This document shows positions 3,104-13,987 of a stretch of DNA of 33,159 bases, piece after piece (within the stretch, counting starts at the first letter, position 1; each line of letters starts with the position of its first letter). The stretch spans positions 1 to 33,159 of the forward strand of contig PWHJ01000206.1 in NCBI GenBank assembly GCA_003554865.1, read 5' to 3'. The stretch comes from Bacteroidota bacterium. GTDB lineage: Bacteria; Bacteroidota; Bacteroidia; Bacteroidales; PUMT01. The translations under genes and the position numbers were made by a program. The notes under the pieces were generated by a model that saw only the letters and a program-made list of their open reading frames with translations, ran no database searches and was not told the DNA's origin.

Positions 3104-3352
3104 TCACAGGAACTGCTGCCTGTTGAACAGGATGTAGCCAAAGTTTATCATGAACACCCAGGTGTCGGCTTTCCGGCCAAGGTATGATGCACTGATGCTC
3201 ACGGGGCCGGGGGAGAGGTGGCGGACAAGGGCAAAATTTGCAATATATGACGGACTGAAGCTGACATTTTCAAAATGTGTGTTGTTATCCACTCCCGGCT
3301 CAATAATGTCACTGGCGGCAACAGCATCCGTTCTGCTCAGTTGCCATCTTCT
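3104..3352 (-). pseudogene. C-terminal remnant of an outer-membrane beta-barrel protein
   Basis: Downstream of the ABC ATPase stop, and overlapping its last 44 bases in another frame, an 82-codon frame opens right after a stop and has no ATG; a GTG at 3292 is the only candidate start. The product has alternating hydrophobic/polar strands (SFSPSYIANFALVRHL, PVSISASYLG, DTWVFMINFGYILF), like the last strands of a barrel. PF17131/FtsX operons in Bacteroidota can include an outer-membrane protein gene. The likely story is an internal deletion that removed most of this gene and left its tail fused near the ATPase end. This is inference from sequence character. Confidence 0.4.
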
Positions 3353-4052
3353 TTACCTCTTCTCTTTCAAAATGTTCATCGCTGTCTACTGCGCCGTCAA
3401 CGAGCGTTATTACACGGCGGGCCCTTTCGATAACCCTCTGGTCGTGCGTTGAGAAGATAAGGGTGATATTTTCTTCCCTGTTCAGCCTGGCCATTATATC
3501 CAGCAGGTTGAAAGCTGACTCGGTATCTAGGTTCGCGGTGGGCTCATCTGCCAGCACAAAGTCCGGTTTAGAAGCCAGAGCCCTTGCCACTGCAACACGC
3601 TGCTGCTGTCCGCCACTCAGTTTGCCCGGCCTTACATCAAGCTTGTCGCCTAGTCCCACCTGTTCAAGCATCTCTTTCGCACGCTCTTCCATTTCGGCTT
3701 TGGGCCTGTTTTGAAGCAGCATTATGAATGATACGTTTTCCACTGCCGTGAGCACCGGTATCAGGTTGTAGGCCTGGAAAACAAAACCGATGTGTCTGAG
3801 GCGGAAATCGAACAGCTTGCTCTCTTTCATCGTTGCGATATCCACTTCGTCTATCACCACATGCCCGCCTGTTGGTTTGTCGAGACCGCCGATAACATTC
3901 AGTAAGGTGGTCTTGCCGCTTCCCGAGGGCCCGACTATGGCTGTGAACTCACCCTGCTTGAACTCAAGGTTTACATTTTTAAGGGCATGTACCGGAACCG
4001 CGGTTTCTGTATATACTTTGGAAAGATTGGTTGTTTTGATTACGGTCTTCAT
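3309..4052 (-). CDS. ABC transporter ATP-binding protein, LolD/MacB type
   Basis: A 247-residue nucleotide-binding subunit with every catalytic motif: Walker A GPSGSGKTT (41-49), Q-loop Gln93, signature LSGGQQQR (145-152), Walker B FVLADE (165-170) and H-loop His203. It would power the two FtsX-type permeases encoded upstream in the same direction, an arrangement of the LolCDE/MacB class that moves lipoproteins or other envelope substrates without transporting them through the membrane core. The last residues (about 236-247, with CCC) do not look like the usual end of the family. They overlap the outer-membrane protein remnant, so the native C-terminus may have been altered by the same deletion. 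A 134-bp gap separates it from the permease gene. Confidence 0.92.
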   Translation of the reverse strand: MKTVIKTTNLSKVYTETAVPVHALKNVNLEFKQGEFTAIVGPSGSGKTTLLNVIGGLDKPTGGHVVIDEVDIATMKESKLFDFRLRHIGFVFQAYNLIPVLTAVENVSFIMLLQNRPKAEMEERAKEMLEQVGLGDKLDVRPGKLSGGQQQRVAVARALASKPDFVLADEPTANLDTESAFNLLDIMARLNREENITLIFSTHDQRVIERARRVITLVDGAVDSDEHFEREEVKKMATEQNGCCCRQ

Positions 4053-4186: not shown

Positions 4187-5407
4187 CTACTCCTGTCTGA
4201 CAGCTACGGCCGGCTGTAGCCGGATCGCTTTCCAGGCCGGGTAAATAGAAGCCAGCACTGCAAAGATCACCAGCACTACGGCTATCTCAAAATAGAATGC
4301 AGTCTCTATTCTCGGGTAAAGAACCGATGCATAGCCAAAATCCTCTAACCCTTCTGCACCCGGTATCGGAACTCCCGTATTGCCAAGGATTGTTATCATG
4401 CCCCATGACATAAACAGACCTGTAGTTCCCCCGATAAGGGCGATAATGGTTGTCTCGGCAACAATCATAGAGAATACTTTCCTTTTTTTCATGCCTACTG
4501 CCAGTAGTACTCCAAGCTCCCTTACCCTTTCGAGTATCGACATAAGAATTGTGTTCAGCAAACCGAAAGAGACGGCCATTATAATGATTATCAATATCCA
4601 GATCAGGGCTTCTCCCAGAAATTCGAGCGAATAAAAAAGTGCTGGTTCCAGATCCGCCCAATGCCTTACCTCAGTGTCAGTGAAAAGGCCGCTTATTATA
4701 GAGGCAACATCCCTGTAGTCATCAGGATTTTCTATAACCACGGCTATCTCAGTTATCACATCGTTTTCTCCGATAATCCTGTTCAGATCTGAGGTATTGA
4801 CAAAGACTGTCCTCTCCTCAAAGTTTTTGGAGGTGAGCTTATATATCCCCTCAACCCGGAATGACGAACTCACCATTTCGCCCTCAATATCCTGGAAGGT
4901 TAGTACAAGGCGGGAACCTGCAGAGGAGTTAAGTTTGGTTGCAAGTGCCTGTCCTATAACTATTGACGGCAGCCTGCCATTCTCAGAAAAGTATGTCCCT
5001 TCTGTAATGAGTCTATCCAGTCCGGTCGTCCTTGCTTCAATTTCAGGGTCAATTCCTTTTATCCTTACACCCGAGTTCATGTTGGCAGAGGCTATCATAC
5101 CGTCAATAACCGTACGGGGCGATGCAACTGTGATATCATCTCTTTTTGAAAGCTCAGATGCAATTTCAAGTCCCCCTCCAATATAGTGCTGAGCTTCAGG
5201 ATTTGCGATAAAATCGGGATGATGTAACTGTATATGGGAAACCTGGTTGTCAATGGTATCTTCGAATTGCTGTTGCTCCAGGGCCAGTCGCATTGCCGCT
5301 GAAAATACCCCACCCAAAAGTCCGAGAACCAAAGCCATGATAATGGTGGCGGACCGGGACCTGTTCCTCCAGATATTCCTCCATGATATTTTTATAAGTG
5401 TCTTCAT
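4187..5407 (-). CDS. FtsX-like/MacB-type ABC transporter permease (second)
   Basis: A 406-residue membrane protein with the classic FtsX layout. The N-terminus KISWRNIWRNRSRS is followed by TM1 (about 20-42), then an extracytoplasmic MacB-PCD-like domain to about residue 265, and then three C-terminal TM segments starting at ALIWILIIIIMAVSFGLLNT. The cytosolic coupling stretch ERVRELGVLLAVGMKKRKV is characteristic. It presumably forms a heterodimer with the permease encoded 27 bp upstream and uses the ATPase downstream. The putative role is lipoprotein extraction or envelope export; there is no LolC/LolE-specific motif I can point to. Confidence 0.9.
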   Translation of the reverse strand: MKTLIKISWRNIWRNRSRSATIIMALVLGLLGGVFSAAMRLALEQQQFEDTIDNQVSHIQLHHPDFIANPEAQHYIGGGLEIASELSKRDDITVASPRTVIDGMIASANMNSGVRIKGIDPEIEARTTGLDRLITEGTYFSENGRLPSIVIGQALATKLNSSAGSRLVLTFQDIEGEMVSSSFRVEGIYKLTSKNFEERTVFVNTSDLNRIIGENDVITEIAVVIENPDDYRDVASIISGLFTDTEVRHWADLEPALFYSLEFLGEALIWILIIIIMAVSFGLLNTILMSILERVRELGVLLAVGMKKRKVFSMIVAETTIIALIGGTTGLFMSWGMITILGNTGVPIPGAEGLEDFGYASVLYPRIETAFYFEIAVVLVIFAVLASIYPAWKAIRLQPAVAVRQE

Positions 5408-5434: not shown

Positions 5435-6661
5435 CTATTTTCTTGCAGCACTGATCATTTCCAGCCTGAAAACCTTCTTTACCGGATAGAGGCTTACAAC
5501 AAGGGCAATTATGAATATCGTGATACCCTGGTATATAAATATATTCGGTGCCACCGAAAAGGGCAGTACGGGCTCAAAGCCCATATCCAGCATAACCTCG
5601 GCAAGTTCATCTCCCAGCCGTATAGGATTCCTGTTCAGCCACGACATTATGGGATAGCCTACTGCCACACCGCATAATACCCCCATCAGGCTCATGAATA
5701 CTGTTTCCAGGAGACATATTGCAGACAGCTGCGTACGTTTCAGTCCGATTGACAGTAATATCCCGAACTCCCTTAGCCGCTCATACATCATGGTTATAAT
5801 GGTTCCGAATATGCCAAAGCCGGCCACAATGTACAGGACCCATGCAAATACCTTAACCTGGGCATCGCGGGCCTCGAGTGCTGCAACAGCGTCGGGAAGA
5901 AGCTCTTCCCAGGTTTTAACAGCATACCATTCATCATCCAGTTTTGCTCTTAGATTCTCAGCCAGGTCATCCACAAACCTTTCATCTTCAACCATAAGGA
6001 CAAGGCTGTTAAGCCTTTCGGGTGCAGCAAAGAAGAACTGTGCCTCCTTAAGGGGAAGATATACCATAGTATTATTCTGCTCGGGCATATTGAATTCTAC
6101 AATCCCACCGACCCTGTATATCCCGGCAGCAGTCATACCCTGAAAGCCCTGGCCCATAAGCACCATAGAATCTCCTACCGACAGCTCAAGAAGATCGGCC
6201 ACACCTCTTGCAATAACTGCAAACTGATCTTCACCGGTGAACATTTCACCCTCAACCAGTTTCGAAGAGAGGTCGTTCATCCTGTCCTCCTTTTCAGGTA
6301 CGATACCCATAACATATACTCCCCGGGTGCCAATTTCCTTTGCGCCAAGACAGAACCCCTGAATTCTGGGAACTGTATAGCTGATAACTCCGGAATACTC
6401 TTCAAGGGCCCTCTTTATCTCTTCGCCGTATTCGAGGGTATGGTCAATCGAGGGTTCGTCATGGTAGAGTGCATCCTGCACCTGCAGATGACCGGTCGAA
6501 TTGGTGACAATCGTTTCTGTCATCACCTCCCTTGTCCCTTCGATAAGAGACATCAGTGAAATTGCCAGAACCACGGCAAACAGCACAGAGCTTACAGTAA
6601 TAAAAGTCCGCCGTTTCTTTCGCCAAAGGTTTCTCCAGGCCAGCATTATTAATAGTTTCAT
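5435..6661 (-). CDS. FtsX-like/MacB-type ABC transporter permease (first)
   Basis: A 408-residue paralogue of the next gene in the operon, with the same architecture: LAWRNLWRKKRRTF start, TM1 (about 20-40), a periplasmic domain of about 230 residues, then three TM segments. The motif ERLREFGILLSIGLKRTQL lies between TM2 and TM3. Its start lies 42 bp after the stop of the LolA-like gene, and its stop lies 27 bp before the next permease, so this is one transcription unit. Divergence between the two permeases suggests an obligate LolC/LolE-like heterodimer (inference). Confidence 0.9.
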   Translation of the reverse strand: MKLLIMLAWRNLWRKKRRTFITVSSVLFAVVLAISLMSLIEGTREVMTETIVTNSTGHLQVQDALYHDEPSIDHTLEYGEEIKRALEEYSGVISYTVPRIQGFCLGAKEIGTRGVYVMGIVPEKEDRMNDLSSKLVEGEMFTGEDQFAVIARGVADLLELSVGDSMVLMGQGFQGMTAAGIYRVGGIVEFNMPEQNNTMVYLPLKEAQFFFAAPERLNSLVLMVEDERFVDDLAENLRAKLDDEWYAVKTWEELLPDAVAALEARDAQVKVFAWVLYIVAGFGIFGTIITMMYERLREFGILLSIGLKRTQLSAICLLETVFMSLMGVLCGVAVGYPIMSWLNRNPIRLGDELAEVMLDMGFEPVLPFSVAPNIFIYQGITIFIIALVVSLYPVKKVFRLEMISAARK

Positions 6662-6703: not shown

Positions 6704-7456
6704 TTATCTGATTGAAGTCAGGTTCTGTATTGAGAAAAAGCCTTCTGATACATCAATGTTAAAATCAGCTTCATGGTAAGTCAGCACAGTCCTGTGCCCG
6801 CGCTTGTCCTCCGGTATCATCTCCATTACAGATGGCATAGGCCTGCCACCAATGGTTTTTATATCCCTGAAGTGAATTGTGCTTACCAGGGCTCCCCCCT
6901 CATCGTAGTTTTCAACCTTCACCGGCAGGTAATACTTCTTGCTTACCCAGTAAATGACCTTTTCATATAACACCGGCGTTTCGGGGTGGGGCACCATCTC
7001 TATTTTGTAACACTCCATTTTATCAATGACCTCGCTTTCTGCCAGTTCGTGATTATAGTCATCAATAACCGAAGCACCCCTTACAAGGTCATCGTTGGAG
7101 AAGTCTGATCCCATCCACGACTGCGACATCATCGAGGGTGGCATTCTGACCGTCCTGTCGATATTGGGAACATAGTTCCAGATCTCATTTTTACGCTTGA
7201 GGAAAGCCGTTCCCTGATCCCTTGCAGGTGCGGTTACATAAATAAGGGCAAAGTCATCTCCCAGGCTCCAGGACCTCATAGATATTTCCCTTGTATAGCG
7301 GGGCCTCACTGTCTCCATCGTCATTTCGGCGTAGGAGGCGTCACCCCTCATGTTGTATTCCATCAGGCGAAGTATTTCCTTTGCATCCTTTCCGTTTGCA
7401 GCCAATGATGCAACTGCCAGAAAAATTGCTATTAGAATGGTTCCTTTGGTTTTCAT
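6704..7456 (-). CDS. outer membrane lipoprotein-sorting protein (LolA-like, PF17131 type)
   Basis: A 250-residue exported protein. The signal peptide is clear (MKTKGTILIAIFLAVASLAANG), with cleavage near residues 20-22 and no lipobox Cys. The mature part has the LolA/LolB-like beta-sheet family features of PF17131: EMTMETVRPRYTREISMRSW, KRKNEIWNYVPNIDRTVRMPPSMM, SQSWMGSDFSNDDLV and a terminal LTYHEADFNI strand. Such proteins are thought to carry a hydrophobic ligand across the periplasm for a cognate FtsX/LolD-type transporter, which is exactly what follows. It is the first gene of the operon and sits behind the promoter and direct repeats described at 7532-7602. Confidence 0.88.
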   Translation of the reverse strand: MKTKGTILIAIFLAVASLAANGKDAKEILRLMEYNMRGDASYAEMTMETVRPRYTREISMRSWSLGDDFALIYVTAPARDQGTAFLKRKNEIWNYVPNIDRTVRMPPSMMSQSWMGSDFSNDDLVRGASVIDDYNHELAESEVIDKMECYKIEMVPHPETPVLYEKVIYWVSKKYYLPVKVENYDEGGALVSTIHFRDIKTIGGRPMPSVMEMIPEDKRGHRTVLTYHEADFNIDVSEGFFSIQNLTSIR

Positions 7457-7531: not shown

Positions 7532-7562
7532 CAAAAGTACCGCAAGAGCAATTCTTCGGCAA
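7532..7562 (-). promoter_or_regulatory. Bacteroidota-type promoter of the LolA-like/ABC operon
   Basis: On the minus strand, TACTTTTG (7539-7532) matches the -7 consensus TAnnTTTG. A TTG (7562-7560) lies 20 bp upstream as the -33 element. Transcription would start about 70 nt before the ATG at 7456. The -33 half is weaker than consensus (TTG rather than TTTG), as expected for a promoter that needs an activator. Confidence 0.5.
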
Positions 7563-7571
7563 TTAAATCTC

Positions 7572-7602
7572 GTTGAATGACAGGAAGTTTTTGTTGAATG
7601 AC
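7572..7602. promoter_or_regulatory. tandem direct repeat, probable LytTR-type operator
   Basis: Two exact copies of GTTGAATGAC (7572-7581 and 7593-7602; GTCATTCAAC on the transcribed strand) are separated by 11 bp, so they repeat every 21 bp, two helical turns. They lie just upstream of the -33 box. Two 9-10-bp direct repeats about 21-22 bp apart are the hallmark of LytTR-domain binding; the E. coli YpdB site has the same 10-N11-10 geometry. A LytTR regulator is encoded at 9102-9869. Which protein binds here is inference. Confidence 0.5.
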
Positions 7603-7714: not shown

Positions 7715-8806
7715 CTACTTCCGTGTGATATTCCTGACGATTGAATTGAACTTTTCAACCTCTTCCATAACAGGGCTGTGAGCAGAGTTCTCAAAGGTGA
7801 AGAATTCTTTTTCAGGTGCTTTTAGCTGGTCATAAAATTCTTTGGCAATACAATACGGGGTTGTAAAATCATACTTTCCGTGAAAAATATAGACAGGTAC
7901 CTGCATACTTTCTATTTCGCTGAAAAGATTTGTATGGATCACCTCATTCCACATATGCTCGAGTGAAAACATGCCCCCATTCATGAAATTGAGTTTGTCG
8001 CCAATTGTATATTCCCTGGCTTTAAACACTAATTTAACCAGTGGCCACATTCCCCTGATATCCCGGGTGGTTCCGCCGCCGAATTTATTCACATATATTC
8101 TTTGTTTCGTCATATAATCAATCCACTCCTTGCCGCTGGCATTCAAGTCAGGAAGATTTAATCCGGCCAGTGCTTCAGCAGCTTTCTTATCATTACGCTC
8201 ACGGGCCTCTTTTTTTGCCCATTCAAATGAGATTTGCTCTCCCCTGAACTGATCTGCTACCTGTCCGATCCCAAAATAGGCCTGATAAAGCTCAGGATGT
8301 TGGTATGCGGTCAATATTCCCAATAATGAACCCCATGAATGGCCCATAATATATATCCTGTCCTGGTTAAATCTTTCTGAGAGGTATTCACTCAGTTTGC
8401 GGGTGTCTGAAATAAACTGCTCCATATTCATGCTTTCAACCGGAATATCTTTTGACCAGGATTTGCCCGCCCCTCGCTGTTCCCAGTAAACCATTACAAA
8501 GTCCTTTTCTATATTGGTATTGAAATGTTTCATGAAGGCAACTTGCGGACTTCCGGGTCCGCCATGCAGGAAAAGCATTACAGGTTTGGTGGAGTCTGCG
8601 CCCCTTATTATGACATACTGATCAAGTCCCCCCAGGTTGATCTTTTCAATAGCAGAAATACTGCCCTCCAGCGGGTTTCCGTCGGGGCAGGTGAGGGGTT
8701 CGGCTTTTCCGGGACTGATAATCCATAGCGCAATGAAAAGTCCCAGAACTAATGTTAATATCCCTAATATGATGTATAGGCTTACTTTGATTATTCTTTT
8801 TCCCAT
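7715..8806 (-). CDS. alpha/beta hydrolase, prolyl-iminopeptidase-like, membrane-anchored
   Basis: A 363-residue alpha/beta hydrolase with an N-terminal membrane anchor (residues about 8-30), so the enzyme is probably tethered and faces the periplasm. The family signature is strong: HGGPG (81-85), YWEQRGAGKS (107-116), nucleophile elbow G-H-S-W-G with Ser157, Asp313 in HGKYDF and His343 in ENSAHSP. HGGPG plus DxRGxGxS-like motifs are typical of the prolyl aminopeptidase family, but many homologues are general esterases or peptidases. It lies downstream of the LytTR regulator in the same direction, with a possible small ORF between. Confidence 0.9.
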   Translation of the reverse strand: MGKRIIKVSLYIILGILTLVLGLFIALWIISPGKAEPLTCPDGNPLEGSISAIEKINLGGLDQYVIIRGADSTKPVMLFLHGGPGSPQVAFMKHFNTNIEKDFVMVYWEQRGAGKSWSKDIPVESMNMEQFISDTRKLSEYLSERFNQDRIYIMGHSWGSLLGILTAYQHPELYQAYFGIGQVADQFRGEQISFEWAKKEARERNDKKAAEALAGLNLPDLNASGKEWIDYMTKQRIYVNKFGGGTTRDIRGMWPLVKLVFKAREYTIGDKLNFMNGGMFSLEHMWNEVIHTNLFSEIESMQVPVYIFHGKYDFTTPYCIAKEFYDQLKAPEKEFFTFENSAHSPVMEEVEKFNSIVRNITRK

Positions 8807-9101: not shown

Positions 9102-9869
9102 CTATTCCTGCCCTTCCAGCCACTTCTTGAATGGCGTTACCTTGTCTATGCTAACAAGTGCGTCATTATCGGTTTTAGGTTCAAGGTCCAGTTTAAGCCT
9201 GCTTGTTGAAAGTATATGAACCTCTTTTATCGAATCGAGTGATACGAGCATCTGCCTGTTTATTCTGAAAAACCTGCCGGGGTCAACCTCCTTTGACAGT
9301 GCATCCAGGCTCTGGTCGAGACAGTAGTGCTTGTTATCCCTCAGGCAGGCTGTTGTGAAACCTCCTTCACTTCTAAAGTAGCTGATATCAGATACGGTGA
9401 ATGTCTTTATCTTCTGACCTACCCTGACCGAGAACCTTTCGCGGTATCCTTCATCCTTCTTTACTATAAGTTCATAAAGCTTGTGGATATCTGCCGATTT
9501 ATCGCCGCCTGATGTCATTTCGCGGTATTTTTTCAGGGCCGAATTAAGCTCTTCCTGCACTATGGGTTTCAGAAGATAGTCAATACTCCTAAGCTTGAAG
9601 GCCTTTATTGCATATTCATCAAAGGCGGTTGTGAAGATAATGGAGCTTGATATATCCACTTTTTCGAATATGGCGAAGCTGAGGTCGTCTTCCAGGTGTA
9701 TGTCAAGAAAGATCAGGTCGGGATGAGTATTCTCCCTGAACCACTCAACCGAGTCCTCTACCGACTCAAGCTGGGCGATTATCTCAATATCCTTGTCGTA
9801 TGAAAGGATCATCTTCTTCAGACGCTCAGAAGCAAGCGTTTCATCTTCAATTATTACTACTCTCATCAC
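9102..9869 (-). CDS. LytTR-family response regulator
   Basis: A 255-residue two-domain regulator. The receiver domain (1 to about 120) has the acidic pocket IIEDE (6-10), the phosphorylation site Asp56 in FLDIHLED, the Thr/Ser in IIFTTAFDEYA and the conserved Lys in DYLLKP. The C-terminal LytTR DNA-binding domain (about 145-245) shows SYFRSEGGFTTACL, RFFRINRQMLVSLDSIKEVH and a closing PFKKWLEG. It is encoded downstream of the LytS-type kinase, its expected partner. A matching tandem-repeat operator is seen at 7572-7602. A 116-bp gap separates it from the kinase gene. Confidence 0.95.
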   Translation of the reverse strand: MMRVVIIEDETLASERLKKMILSYDKDIEIIAQLESVEDSVEWFRENTHPDLIFLDIHLEDDLSFAIFEKVDISSSIIFTTAFDEYAIKAFKLRSIDYLLKPIVQEELNSALKKYREMTSGGDKSADIHKLYELIVKKDEGYRERFSVRVGQKIKTFTVSDISYFRSEGGFTTACLRDNKHYCLDQSLDALSKEVDPGRFFRINRQMLVSLDSIKEVHILSTSRLKLDLEPKTDNDALVSIDKVTPFKKWLEGQE

Positions 9870-9985: not shown

Positions 9986-12259
9986 TTACGTATGGCTCTT
10001 TTCATCTTTGATATAATCATGATCCAGTAAAGGTATCTTTGCGATAAACTGTTTGCCGGTTATTTCGAATACCGGCTGCACATCAGAGAGCAGTGAGTAT
10101 CTTTTACTTATGTTTACCAGTCCCACCCCTGTTGATGCCATTTGTGTCTTCCGGTTCTGCAGGTTGTTTATAACTGTAAGATAGCCGGATCCATCAGTCG
10201 ACAACTCAATATTCAGGGGATTTTTGCTTGAAAAGGTGTTGTGCTTTATAGCATTTTCAATAAGCAGCTGCAGGGCCATCGGAACCACCTGCTTATCAGT
10301 TTCGGCGTCTGCAACATCGGTTTTCACCTTCACTTTTCCGGCAAACCTGATATTAAGCATAAACAGGTATGAATTAATAAAGTCAAGTTCAGTACCAAGT
10401 GTCACCAGGTCCTTTTCTTTATTCTCCAGCACATAGCGATAGACTTTTGCCAGCTTTTCAGTGAACATCTCAGCCAGGTCAGGGTCCACCTTGATCAGCG
10501 ATGTAAGGACGTTTAGGCTGTTAAAGAGAAAATGAGGATTGACCTGTTGTTTAAGTACCTGGAACTGCGACTGAAGATTCTCTTTCTGGAGCTTGAGTAA
10601 CTGGGTGTTTGCTTTGGTAAGCTTTGCCGTTCTTTCCTCAACTGTTTTTTCCAGTTGACGGTTAAGTTTCTCCATTTCCTGCTTGGCCTCCAAAAGAGCC
10701 TGTTCTGCATTTTTTTTATCCGTTATTTCCGTTGTAATGCCATCAAGGTAGATTGTGTCGTTGACCTCGTCGAACACCGGCCGGCCGTTTTCCTGCACCC
10801 AGGTAATGGTTCCGTTCTTATGGACTATCCTGAACTCCAGAGAGTATGGTGTATTGTTATTAACACTTTTGCGTATATGTTCGCGGACCGTTTTAATGTC
10901 TTTATAATAAATGATATCGGTAAACCGTACATTCTTGTTGTCAATAAAATCCTGCGCGCTGTAGCCGGTTATGTCAAAAATCTTATCACCGTAGTATATT
11001 GTTGTAAAATGTTCATCATACAAACATCTTGAAACCGCCCCGTTCAGGTTTGATGTGAGGGTTTTGACAAGACTCTGGGTTTCCCGCAGCTTATCCTCTG
11101 CTCTTTTTTTATCACTTATATCTGTTATAATGCCGTCAATGAACAACATTTTACCCTCATTATCGTAAACACCCCGTCCGGCTTCATACACCCAGACAAT
11201 TTCACCGCTTTTTTTCACCAGCCTGTAATTGAGGTCAAATTTTTTCTTTCCGGCTAATGCTTCAGATATCTTTGCCCTTAAAATTTCAAGATCACCTGTA
11301 TGGACGATAGAAGAGAACGACCTTCCTTTTCCGGTGAAATCTTCAGATCTGTAACCAGTAATATCTTCCACCTGGTCGGTAATGAAAAGCATTGTCCACT
11401 TCTCATCGGGAAGACATCTGTAGGTGAACCCTATAAGGTTGGATATTATACTTTTGATTTGTTCCTTGTTTGCCTTCAGCTGTGCGGCAATTACATCCCT
11501 GGCCTTTATCTCTTCTTCCAGCTTTGCATTAAGTGCTTTTTCCTTTTCTATGAGACTGGAAGCAAATTTGTTCTTTTCCTGCTCCAGTTTTATTTCAGCA
11601 TCAAGCCTGTTTTTATGGGCAGCTTCCGCAAACTGTTTTTCAATGAACCGGGTAATTGAGTTTTGCATGTATATGCAGAGCAAACCTATAAATATTATAT
11701 ATACCGATTTGAAAATGTGTGAGATAGGCGAAAGTGATATGTTTTCCGAAAGCAGTCCGGGGGTTTGGCTGTACTGCAAAAAATATATAAGGTTAAAACC
11801 TATGGCAGATATTATGATCAGATATAGGAGAAGCATCCTGTCGAGGCGGAATGTATATATCATGAATACAATGGGGATCAGGAGTATAGTTGCTGTGGCC
11901 GTTGCGGCAGCCGGATCGAAAAATACTGTCAATCCGTATATGTGATAGCTGATTACTGCAATATCTACGGTACCTCCGATATAGCCGAGGTAGGTAGGAT
12001 TGTATTTTTTTTCTGCCGCATACCAGAAAATAAGATTTGTTAAAAAGTACACAGCAATCAGCGTAAACCCGTGCCTGGAAACCTCAGTGTAACCCAGTAA
12101 AAGCTGTATTGTGAGAAGGGTGCCAGCCAGCAAGATGAAAAACCATCTGTAGGTAACCGACAAACGGGTACCCTTAAGCCGCTCCTCCTCCAGCAGCTCT
12201 TCAGACAACTTCTGTTCCGGAAGAGGGCTTAATGTAGATATTATGTAATTTCCTGTCAT
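9986..12259 (-). CDS. LytS-type sensor histidine kinase with N-terminal membrane domain and two PAS domains
   Basis: A 757-residue sensor. The order is a cytoplasmic N-tail, about six TM helices (residues about 35-205), a coiled coil (about 205-265), PAS/PAC 1 (about 268-392), PAS/PAC 2 (about 398-520, ending in ITDKKNAEQ), a second coiled coil, then a His_kinase (PF06580) domain. The phosphoacceptor is His576 in QVNPHFLFNSLN. The ATP-binding N-box is LLIENAIKHN (about 665-674) and the G-box is TGVGLVNI. Two tandem PAS domains next to a membrane module suggest sensing of a small or redox ligand, but the signal is unknown. It is paired with the LytTR regulator downstream. Confidence 0.95.
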   Translation of the reverse strand: MTGNYIISTLSPLPEQKLSEELLEEERLKGTRLSVTYRWFFILLAGTLLTIQLLLGYTEVSRHGFTLIAVYFLTNLIFWYAAEKKYNPTYLGYIGGTVDIAVISYHIYGLTVFFDPAAATATATILLIPIVFMIYTFRLDRMLLLYLIIISAIGFNLIYFLQYSQTPGLLSENISLSPISHIFKSVYIIFIGLLCIYMQNSITRFIEKQFAEAAHKNRLDAEIKLEQEKNKFASSLIEKEKALNAKLEEEIKARDVIAAQLKANKEQIKSIISNLIGFTYRCLPDEKWTMLFITDQVEDITGYRSEDFTGKGRSFSSIVHTGDLEILRAKISEALAGKKKFDLNYRLVKKSGEIVWVYEAGRGVYDNEGKMLFIDGIITDISDKKRAEDKLRETQSLVKTLTSNLNGAVSRCLYDEHFTTIYYGDKIFDITGYSAQDFIDNKNVRFTDIIYYKDIKTVREHIRKSVNNNTPYSLEFRIVHKNGTITWVQENGRPVFDEVNDTIYLDGITTEITDKKNAEQALLEAKQEMEKLNRQLEKTVEERTAKLTKANTQLLKLQKENLQSQFQVLKQQVNPHFLFNSLNVLTSLIKVDPDLAEMFTEKLAKVYRYVLENKEKDLVTLGTELDFINSYLFMLNIRFAGKVKVKTDVADAETDKQVVPMALQLLIENAIKHNTFSSKNPLNIELSTDGSGYLTVINNLQNRKTQMASTGVGLVNISKRYSLLSDVQPVFEITGKQFIAKIPLLDHDYIKDEKSHT

Positions 12260-12290: not shown

Positions 12291-12587
12291 TCAATTATTT
12301 TCTCCTGAATGGTCATTTTGGGAATTTGAATTAGTTTTTCCTTGCTCATCCTCAAGCATCCCCAGTTCTCTCCACACGCAATCATAGCCGGTACCGCTGC
12401 TGGTGCCTACCAGCCAGTGTATACAATAATCAAATATATAGTCACCCCTTTTCCAGGAAGTGCATACACCACCCGGCCTGGTATGTGCCTCAAATATTTC
12501 GGTATCATAACCATTGCGAACCAGATAGGAGCCTGCCGACAGTCCGGCAATCCCACCGCCGATTATCAATACTTTTCTTTTTTTCAT
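12291..12587 (-). pseudogene. truncated FAD-dependent oxidoreductase (phytoene-desaturase-like N-terminus)
   Basis: Only the N-terminal part of a family whose members are about 500 residues long remains. The dinucleotide-binding motif GGGIAGLSAG (about 10-19) is intact, followed by EIFEAHTRPGGVCTSWKRG and DYCIHWLVGT, as in CrtI-like NAD(P)/FAD oxidoreductases. After LGML the sequence jumps to a polar tail (EDEQGKTNSNSQND) and stops at residue 98. This suggests internal deletion and frame loss. It lacks the substrate and C-terminal FAD regions, so it cannot be a working enzyme. It lies 47 bp after an alpha/beta hydrolase gene. A second relic of the same 5' end is at 20793-20829. Confidence 0.75.
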
Positions 12588-12634: not shown

Positions 12635-13429
12635 TCATTGATTTATACTTTCCAGGAAGTTCTTCAAAGCCTCATTGAACCGGTCTGGATTATCCTGGTT
12701 GGCGATGTGATTAGCACCCTTAATCTCCACAAGAACGCTACCTGGTGTTTTTTCATGCCATTTAACTGAGTTTTTGCGGATAAAAGATAATTCTTTTTCT
12801 CCAAAGGAGATCATAAGATGGCGGTATTCCGGTTCAGGAATTCCTTCAATAATTTCATGCAGCATATCTTTTGTTATGGCAGCTATCAGCTTCCTCCCTG
12901 TATTTTTTGTTGCTTCAATAAGATATTCCTGTGTTTCTACAGAGTCAGCCTTATGCCTGCCAAAGGCATTGTAGAATGTTTTTTTTGGCATGATGTGTAT
13001 CATACCCATTGTAATCGGGATAAAAGCCTTCGCCCAGCTACCTGTATAGCTCTTAAACTCAGTGCCACCAATATGTGCTGTGGCAATAACCCTTTCAGGG
13101 CTTTTAAGCAGGAATCTTTGACTGATGAAACTGCCAAGTGACTGTCCGACAAGCACTGCTTTATCTATACCTTCCTTATCCATCAGACCCTCAAGACACT
13201 CGGCCGTAAGAATTGAGTACCGTTTGTCATAATTCTCAATGGATGAACTGCCATGCCCCGGCAGGTCAATCAGGAGAATCCTATATTGATCATGGAGGCT
13301 CTCTTTTTGTTTCTCAAACGTCCTGTGATCCATTCCAACGCCATGAAGAAATATAACAACAGGTGCGTCTTCAGGTCCCGATAAATCATAATATACATTT
13401 CCATATTTACTTTTATAAAATTTTTCCAT
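12635..13429 (-). CDS. alpha/beta hydrolase
   Basis: A 264-residue soluble alpha/beta hydrolase. It shows FLHGVGMDHRTF (28-38), IDLPGHGSS (54-62), the nucleophile elbow G-Q-S-L-G with Ser97 and His241 in KGANHIANQDNP, as in esterase/BioH/MhpC-like enzymes. The usual catalytic Asp after the fifth main strand is replaced: the segment reads ISFGEKELSF, so Glu211 or Glu213 would have to serve as the acid. It precedes the truncated oxidoreductase in the same direction. A degenerate copy of its N-terminal region is found at 18154-18261. Confidence 0.9.
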   Translation of the reverse strand: MEKFYKSKYGNVYYDLSGPEDAPVVIFLHGVGMDHRTFEKQKESLHDQYRILLIDLPGHGSSSIENYDKRYSILTAECLEGLMDKEGIDKAVLVGQSLGSFISQRFLLKSPERVIATAHIGGTEFKSYTGSWAKAFIPITMGMIHIMPKKTFYNAFGRHKADSVETQEYLIEATKNTGRKLIAAITKDMLHEIIEGIPEPEYRHLMISFGEKELSFIRKNSVKWHEKTPGSVLVEIKGANHIANQDNPDRFNEALKNFLESINQ

Positions 13430-13987
13430 AATTGATTATTGGCTTTGGGCTTCATATTATTGAAAGAATTATTTATAGTATTGGTGTTTGAAAATTATTC
13501 ACTAAGGTCAGATTTTTAAAACCACCGGAGAAACAATTATCAATGAATGGATGTTTTTAACTGGTAAATGGCGCAGATTTCACCTTAAACGGAATTAAAA
13601 GATAATCTTCAATTTACTCTATGGAGAAAAGCTTCTTCCGGAAAGCATTCTCAACCTAACTTTATAAGGTCAGCCTGATAGCAGTTGTGCTCTATTGGGA
13701 AAAAATATACCTTGCAGTTCTCTCCCCAGCAGTCTTTATATTCAGGATGGGTAAGTGTTGGAAAGTTTATCCTTTTATAGTCAATAAAATTCATGTAATT
13801 TTATACTGGAAAAGACCGATTTTAACTTACAAGGTGGACCGTTTCACTTTGCATATGATAATATGTTCATTTTGCCTGTGTGTAACTCTAGCGTGACAGG
13901 ATACAGGTGAAGAGGGATAACGACTTCGAGGATATAAAAAAAGTGATTTCTAAAATGGGTTAAAGCTTTACGTTTATTTTGATTTGA
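13430..13987. other. 558-bp intergenic region with a possible gene tail
   Basis: No convincing gene. A frame at 13892-13963 (+) reads a coding-like tail, KRDNDFEDIKKVISKMG, but has no start and follows a stop. It shares the 12-mer TGACAGGATACA with another debris region near 24843. The stretch must also hold the divergent promoters for the hydrolase (minus) and the AraC regulator (plus). I see no clear TAnnTTTG box for either. Confidence 0.4.

Follow-up and report, generated by a model that had tools for sequence, protein, structure and literature searches.

LytTR regulators are numerous in Bacteroidota. The operators of LytTR proteins in general are composed of repeats of 9-11 nt separated by spacers of 11-13 bp (PMC4847170), and in the LytTR systems described in PMC6193735 direct repeats lie just upstream of the -35 element and are accompanied by positive autoregulation. 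The HdrRM and BrsRM systems of S. mutans follow this design, with ACC.CTTA repeats, a 12-bp spacer and a membrane inhibitor that holds the regulator in place of a kinase (PMC6193735). In E. coli, the LytS/LytTR pair YpdA/YpdB acts at PyhjX, where the YpdB repeat GGCATTTCAT has a 10-N11-10 arrangement (PMC4847170). The BtsR and YpdB motifs are conserved in γ-proteobacteria (PMC5552118). For Bacteroidota, the only predicted LytTR operator recovered by our literature search, which mostly covered papers available without subscription, was that of the Bacteroides LRS-like operons, in which TCCGGTATTCA-11 bp-ACCGGAAATCA is followed by 11 bp, TGTA, 19 bp and TATCTTTG (B. thetaiotaomicron and B. ovatus; Table 3 of PMC6193735). 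The same search returned no Bacteroidota kinase/LytTR circuit of the design reported here and none controlling LolA-like/FtsX genes.

We analyzed a 33,159-nt stretch of DNA from a member of the Bacteroidales (contig PWHJ01000206.1; hereafter the window), which carries a tandem repeat between a LytS/LytTR gene pair and a LolA-like/FtsX/FtsX/ATPase cassette. The locus shares with YpdA/YpdB the type of regulatory pair and the 10-N11-10 geometry, and differs from it in that the YpdB half-site core is one T longer, the promoter is of another class and the E. coli target is an MFS-type transporter. With the Bacteroides LRS-like operons it shares the GG(T/C)ATTCA core, seen there in the first copy, the 11-bp spacer and, when counted from the end of ATTCA, the distances of 11 bp and 19 bp, which in those operons lead to a TG-rich -33 element and to TATCTTTG. 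In contrast, the period is 22 in those operons and 21 in the window; in those operons the site faces its own operon, there is no FtsX/LolA-like cassette, and the regulator is a membrane-anchored LytTR protein with an NfeD/DUF2154 membrane partner. The window pair is a kinase and a response regulator, not the kinase-free combination of membrane inhibitor and membrane-anchored LytTR protein by which LRS-like systems are recognized. The preliminary description of the window had proposed an unreported two-component circuit. No description of this circuit was found, although its general design has been published for other LytTR systems; in relatives, the circuit also appears wider than proposed, taking in further targets and autoregulation of the kinase.

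The tandem repeat, its promoter and its neighbors

Exact 10-mer direct repeats with periods of 12-40 occurred in the whole window at period 21 only, with a tally of two counts that fits one 11-base repeat. On the plus strand, 7593..7602 and 7572..7581 are two exact copies of GTTGAATGAC, 21 bp apart from start to start with an 11-bp spacer, as the preliminary description had stated. On the minus strand, the order is GTCATTCAAC-N11-GTCATTCAAC (7602-7572), 9 bp, TTGC, 19 bp and TACTTTTG (to 7532) (Table 1). The claimed LytTR-site geometry likewise agrees with the published definition (PMC4847170), and the repeat stands shortly upstream of the -33 element. TAnnTTTG is the Bacteroidota sigma-A -7 consensus, placed at -12 to -5 (PMC9723704); TTGC-N19-TACTTTTG conforms to it, with a TTG-type element about 19 bp upstream, while a sigma-70 scan is uninformative for promoters of this type. 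This promoter reads, as described earlier, into the cassette, whose genes were confirmed by Pfam. The ATG of the LolA-like gene lies at 7456, 115 nt from the repeat, with 92 nt from TACTTTTG to the ATG side.

Table 1. Features of the operator region in the window, and half-sites upstream of related cassettes
Feature	Position	Strand	Basis
ABC ATPase; best NCBIfam model LolD, below cut-off	3309..4052	-	Pfam, NCBIfam
FtsX/MacB_PCD permease 2	4187..5407	-	Pfam
FtsX/MacB_PCD permease 1	5435..6661	-	Pfam
LolA_like (PF17131), first gene of cassette	6704..7456	-	Pfam
-7 element TACTTTTG, 19 bp past TTGC	7532..7539	-	consensus TAnnTTTG (PMC9723704)
-33 element TTGC, 9 bp past proximal 10-mer	7559..7562	-	same distance in orthologous cassettes
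Proximal half-site GTCATTCAAC, 21 bp from distal	7572..7581	-	repeat search; kept in orthologs
Distal half-site GTCATTCAAC	7593..7602	-	repeat search; kept in orthologs
Alpha/beta hydrolase gene between LytTR gene and operator, absent from the preliminary description	7715..8806	-	Pfam
Response regulator, receiver and LytTR domains, proposed operator ligand	9102..9869	-	Pfam
Histidine kinase of the LytS type, with a hydrophobic N-terminal region, two PAS stretches and a His_kinase domain	9986..12259	-	Pfam
Possible second, weaker site GCCATTTACC-N11-TCCATTCATT	13542..13572	-	upstream of gene 12635-13429, frame leading into kinase and LytTR genes
G003 cassette half-sites GCCATTCAAC/GTCATTCATC
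G010 cassette half-sites GTAATTCAAC/GTCATTCACA
L035 cassette half-sites GGCATTCAAA/GGCATTCATG
G005 cassette half-sites CCGGTTCAAC/GCCATTCATA
G006 cassette half-sites CCGGTTCAAC/GCCATTCATC
G002 cassette half-sites GCTTTTCAAA/CTCTTTCACC, much degraded

At up to three mismatches, the tandem pattern was present once in the window, where 0.01 occurrences were expected (100 shuffles, with a match in one), and once in the 3.2-Mb genome to which the window belongs, where the reversed-pattern control gave none. We also looked for a third half-site another 21 bp upstream; L069 has a clear triple, but the window and L035 show weak matches and the cassettes do not agree. When the repeat alone was scanned against this genome with two mismatches, it matched 28 places, nearly all within open frames, whereas the reversed control matched 16; the regulon proposed for this genome therefore stops at the cassette and, weakly, the 13542-13572 site.

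The LytS/LytTR pair noted earlier at less than 3 kb was confirmed by Pfam: the His_kinase (PF06580) protein adjoins the receiver-LytTR protein in an order kept in relatives, and the LytTR gene lies 1.5 kb from the operator. The listed start of its open reading frame is GTG, directly followed by ATG. A PDB search gave receiver-domain relatives and, among the 60 matches listed, no LytTR-domain match. In six loci (L233, L235, L240, L242, L244 and L251), a separate 115-128-aa receiver-like match, with 57-70% identity to the receiver of the LytTR protein, lies between the kinase and LytTR genes and is possibly an extra stand-alone receiver. Sister-clade LytTR systems (L245, L246, L247 and L248) likewise have relatives (33-40%) of the 7715-8806 hydrolase close to their kinase. 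At 12291-12587 on the minus strand, the similarity of a 98-aa frame to FAD-dependent oxidoreductases (NAD_binding_8, Amino_oxidase and desaturase models) is confined to their N-terminal part; the frame resembles the remnant of a truncated gene within the transcription unit of the kinase.

Conservation of the operator with the cassette and with the regulator

Relatives of the LolA_like gene were collected as 80 loci from a one-genome-per-species scan, plus those found in whole genomes. The closest cassettes keep the operator though the half-sites vary (Table 1), and in G003, G010, L035, G005, G006 and G002 a TTG comes 9 bp after the 10-mer. The full array of operator, 9 bp, TTG, 19 bp and TA-box was found in G003, G010 and L035, and in degenerate form in G002. 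G003, G002 and L035 have a histidine kinase-LytTR pair directly ahead of the cassette; the G010 cassette has a LytTR C-terminus 2.5 kb upstream, separated from it by a gene on the opposite strand. The adjoining LytTR protein of G002 is 77% identical, yet its site carries four mismatches. The refutation test that had been suggested for this locus was therefore passed: the repeat is conserved upstream of orthologous PF17131/FtsX operons near LytTR genes, as seen in G003, G010 and L035 and, degraded, in G002. Module matches were counted over 400 bp ahead of the LolA-like gene in the 80 loci, the window and G003; L042, which starts at the gene, and L067, with only 160 bp upstream, were kept as misses. 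At up to three mismatches, the module was found in 4/5 loci with a LytTR gene upstream versus 4/77 others; at up to four, a limit set after seeing the data, in 5/5 versus 7/77. Where the operator precedes a cassette that has no adjoining LytTR gene, three of the five genomes searched (those of L069/L070, L073, L084, L040 and L076) hold a LytTR ortholog elsewhere (72%, 78% and 85% identity), a level of 72-85% reached in only four genomes of the 393-genome draw. The remaining two contained no LytTR protein above 29% identity.

The same repeat recurs near LytTR orthologs from other families, ahead of different genes. For this comparison we used a fixed model of 21 positions, comprising GNCATTCA twice at period 21, TT 9 bp after the 10-mer and TAnnTTT after 18-21 bp more, and a set of 27 LytTR-ortholog loci (50-100% identity; 357 kb, window included). 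The model gave 17 matches at up to three mismatches in 13 of the 27 loci (4, 4, 5 and 4 matches with 0, 1, 2 and 3 mismatches). The reversed sequence of the same loci gave none at up to four mismatches, and ten Markov-1 controls gave one in all at up to three. There were no matches in 12 loci with LytTR proteins of 34-50% identity, and five in 77 LolA loci without an ortholog in the locus. Period 21 yielded 11 near-perfect repeat pairs, compared with at most three for any other period from 10 to 40. Of 16 repeats picked regardless of promoter, 11 were followed at 32 or 33 bp by a perfect TAnnTTT. When the promoter part was displaced relative to the repeat, the 17 matches fell to 5-9 for displacements of -8 to -4 bp, to 11 for -3 and -2, and to 1-5 for +2 to +15; displacements of -1 and +1, which fall within the spacing tolerance, left 16. 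Because matches persist under these displacements, the repeat by itself accounts for part of the module score. In the fetched DNA of 14/27 loci, no site was found at up to three mismatches, including those of an 86% ortholog (G006) and a 63% ortholog (G173), though the G006 genome has sites elsewhere.

The 13 site-bearing rows among the 40 LytTR proteins of a tree all fell in one 20-row clade (support 97/90) and none among the other 20, with G002 counted as site-bearing despite four mismatches and with long basal branches that are unsafe. Across 393 genomes, the module (up to two mismatches, spacing 23) gave 53 matches versus eight for the reversed pattern and was present in 9/21 genomes with a LytTR ortholog, defined as a best LytTR match of 1e-80 or better by a threshold set afterwards, versus 27/372 without (Fisher p 2.2e-5; related genomes in these counts are not independent). 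Within the 16 genomes of the window's own family, the module (up to three mismatches) occurred in seven, with 17 matches versus four for the control. The repeat is single in the genome of the window and recurs in relatives with the LytTR ortholog, which ties it to the regulator with imperfect co-occurrence. A de novo period-21 search in site-free LytTR loci returned mostly noise and a single lead, CACNTTCA. Near matches to it at period 21 numbered four in six sister-clade loci and zero in the main clade, versus 0 and 10 for the canonical repeat. The variant repeats sit in L245, L246 and L248, and a shift in LytTR specificity of the sister clade is a possible explanation, which we regard as a lead.

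To see which genes the module faces, we compared site positions with kinase matches. The kinase gene was the downstream frame at 7/23 sites listed (L231, the first site of L233, L234, L237, L239, L240 and L251), those of L239, L240 and L251 being weak, with three repeat mismatches. Since the same operator faces the kinase gene in relatives, the circuit likely includes positive autoregulation. The window offers a single weak candidate site for it (13572-13542), which has a poor -7 box and two mismatches in the repeat. It has counterparts in the L298 site and at G010:C385:360, both facing a hydrolase 91% identical to the product of the 12635-13429 gene. If this hydrolase gene, the fragment at 12291-12587, the kinase gene and the LytTR gene form one transcript, the site would mean autoregulation. 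A hydrolase ortholog was also found in part downstream of the L307 site (56% over 64 aa) and was not confirmed downstream of the L302 site. The L294 and L304 sites face TetR-type regulators (Pfam check for L294). The gene after the L236 site was at first guessed to be a CPBP protease, which Pfam did not support.

The cassette and its other regulatory settings

The preliminary description had assigned the cassette to envelope lipoprotein or lipid trafficking. The PF17131 model is matched by the LolA-like protein in Pfam; however, the curated NCBIfam cut-offs for the Lol export system (LolA, LolCDE) were all missed, at 236.5 of 307.75 bits for LolD, 119.2 and 105.6 of 362.45 for LolC/E and 20.4 of 83 for LolA3. 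The cassette resembles Lol and MacB systems, and lipoprotein trafficking, a label drawn from family names below those cut-offs, is a putative function. A paralogous LolA-like/FtsX/FtsX/ATPase cassette of about 64% identity lies in the same genome (G000:C217, locus L173, 2785-7436). It has the same gene content and differs in that it lacks the operator and stands directly behind a small MarR-like gene (MarR_2 24.9 bits, cut-off 27) instead of a LytTR gene. Such MarR-like genes are directly upstream in 36/80 LolA loci (in one of these, L034, the gene scores above the MarR_2 cut-off), and in other LolA loci the cassette follows TetR-type genes. Since homologs stand behind MarR- and TetR-type genes and the paralog has no operator, LytTR control is a minority arrangement of this cassette, and probably a secondary one.

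Alternative explanations and the proposed circuit

Repeats of this kind could arise by chance in AT-rich intergenic DNA, and the repeat without its promoter does match 59/393 genomes, many as tandem arrays. Nevertheless, orthologous cassettes conserve it at a fixed promoter distance, and both the shuffled expectation for the window and the reversed and Markov controls are near zero; we rejected this explanation as highly improbable. It is also unlikely that the repeat is the direct-repeat operator of another regulator, of the OmpR/PhoB type or another LytTR protein, with the neighboring LytTR gene a bystander. Such a regulator would account for the several sites in G155 and G005, where no close LytTR protein was found in these incomplete assemblies, and for the modules in the 27 ortholog-free genomes; other LytTR proteins are common in these genomes, and some of the modules lie in coding or tandem-repeat DNA. 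In contrast, the repeat tracks the LytTR ortholog into loci with unrelated neighbors, the sites map to one clade of the tree, the 21-bp period is that of LytTR operators (PMC4847170) and only two LytTR proteins are encoded in the genome of the window. Among the ortholog-free genomes, G098, G167, G212, G358, G259, G037 and others share an extended CATTCACCG half-site, which is perhaps the operator of other LytTR proteins.

The sign of regulation is invisible in sequence, so that a LytTR protein might bind and repress, or merely tune, the cassette promoter. We consider this unlikely: the repeat stops 9 bp short of the -33 element, with no overlap, in the activating position of LytTR operators (PMC6193735), and from this position we infer activation. 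Taking TAnnTTTG as -12 to -5 (PMC9723704) puts the proximal half-site at about -53 to -44, and the two half-sites are two helical turns apart.

Because the same repeat and promoter distance recur in relatives that carry the regulator, it is very probable that the neighboring regulator docks on the repeat; the site is real, conserved and most likely functional. With good though not full confidence, we propose that it is the operator of the 9102-9869 LytTR regulator, which would activate the cassette promoter upon phosphorylation by the kinase. The membrane kinase (9986-12259), once stimulated by its putative ligand, would phosphorylate the regulator; two regulator molecules would then bind both half-sites on the same helix face, just upstream of the -33 element, and the bound regulator would activate the sigma-A type promoter, leading to transcription of the LolA-like/FtsX/FtsX/ATPase genes. 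The interpretation given in the preliminary description is thus largely supported, with LytTR binding as its predicted step. Tentatively, and with somewhat less than even confidence, we suggest a wider history, in which a Bacteroidales LytS/LytTR lineage uses a portable GNCATTCA module to autoregulate its kinase and has captured the envelope cassette, which in most homologs follows a MarR- or TetR-like gene, while its sister clade shifted its half-site to CACNTTCA. By portable we mean that the GNCATTCA repeat at period 21, with 9 bp, TTG, 19 bp and TAnnTTTG, can be placed before new genes.

A conserved operator with fixed promoter spacing can serve directly as a search pattern for LytTR regulons across the phylum. 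In this organism, the operator connects a kinase and its putative ligand with an uncharacterised cassette for envelope export, and through this link both kinase and cassette become testable.
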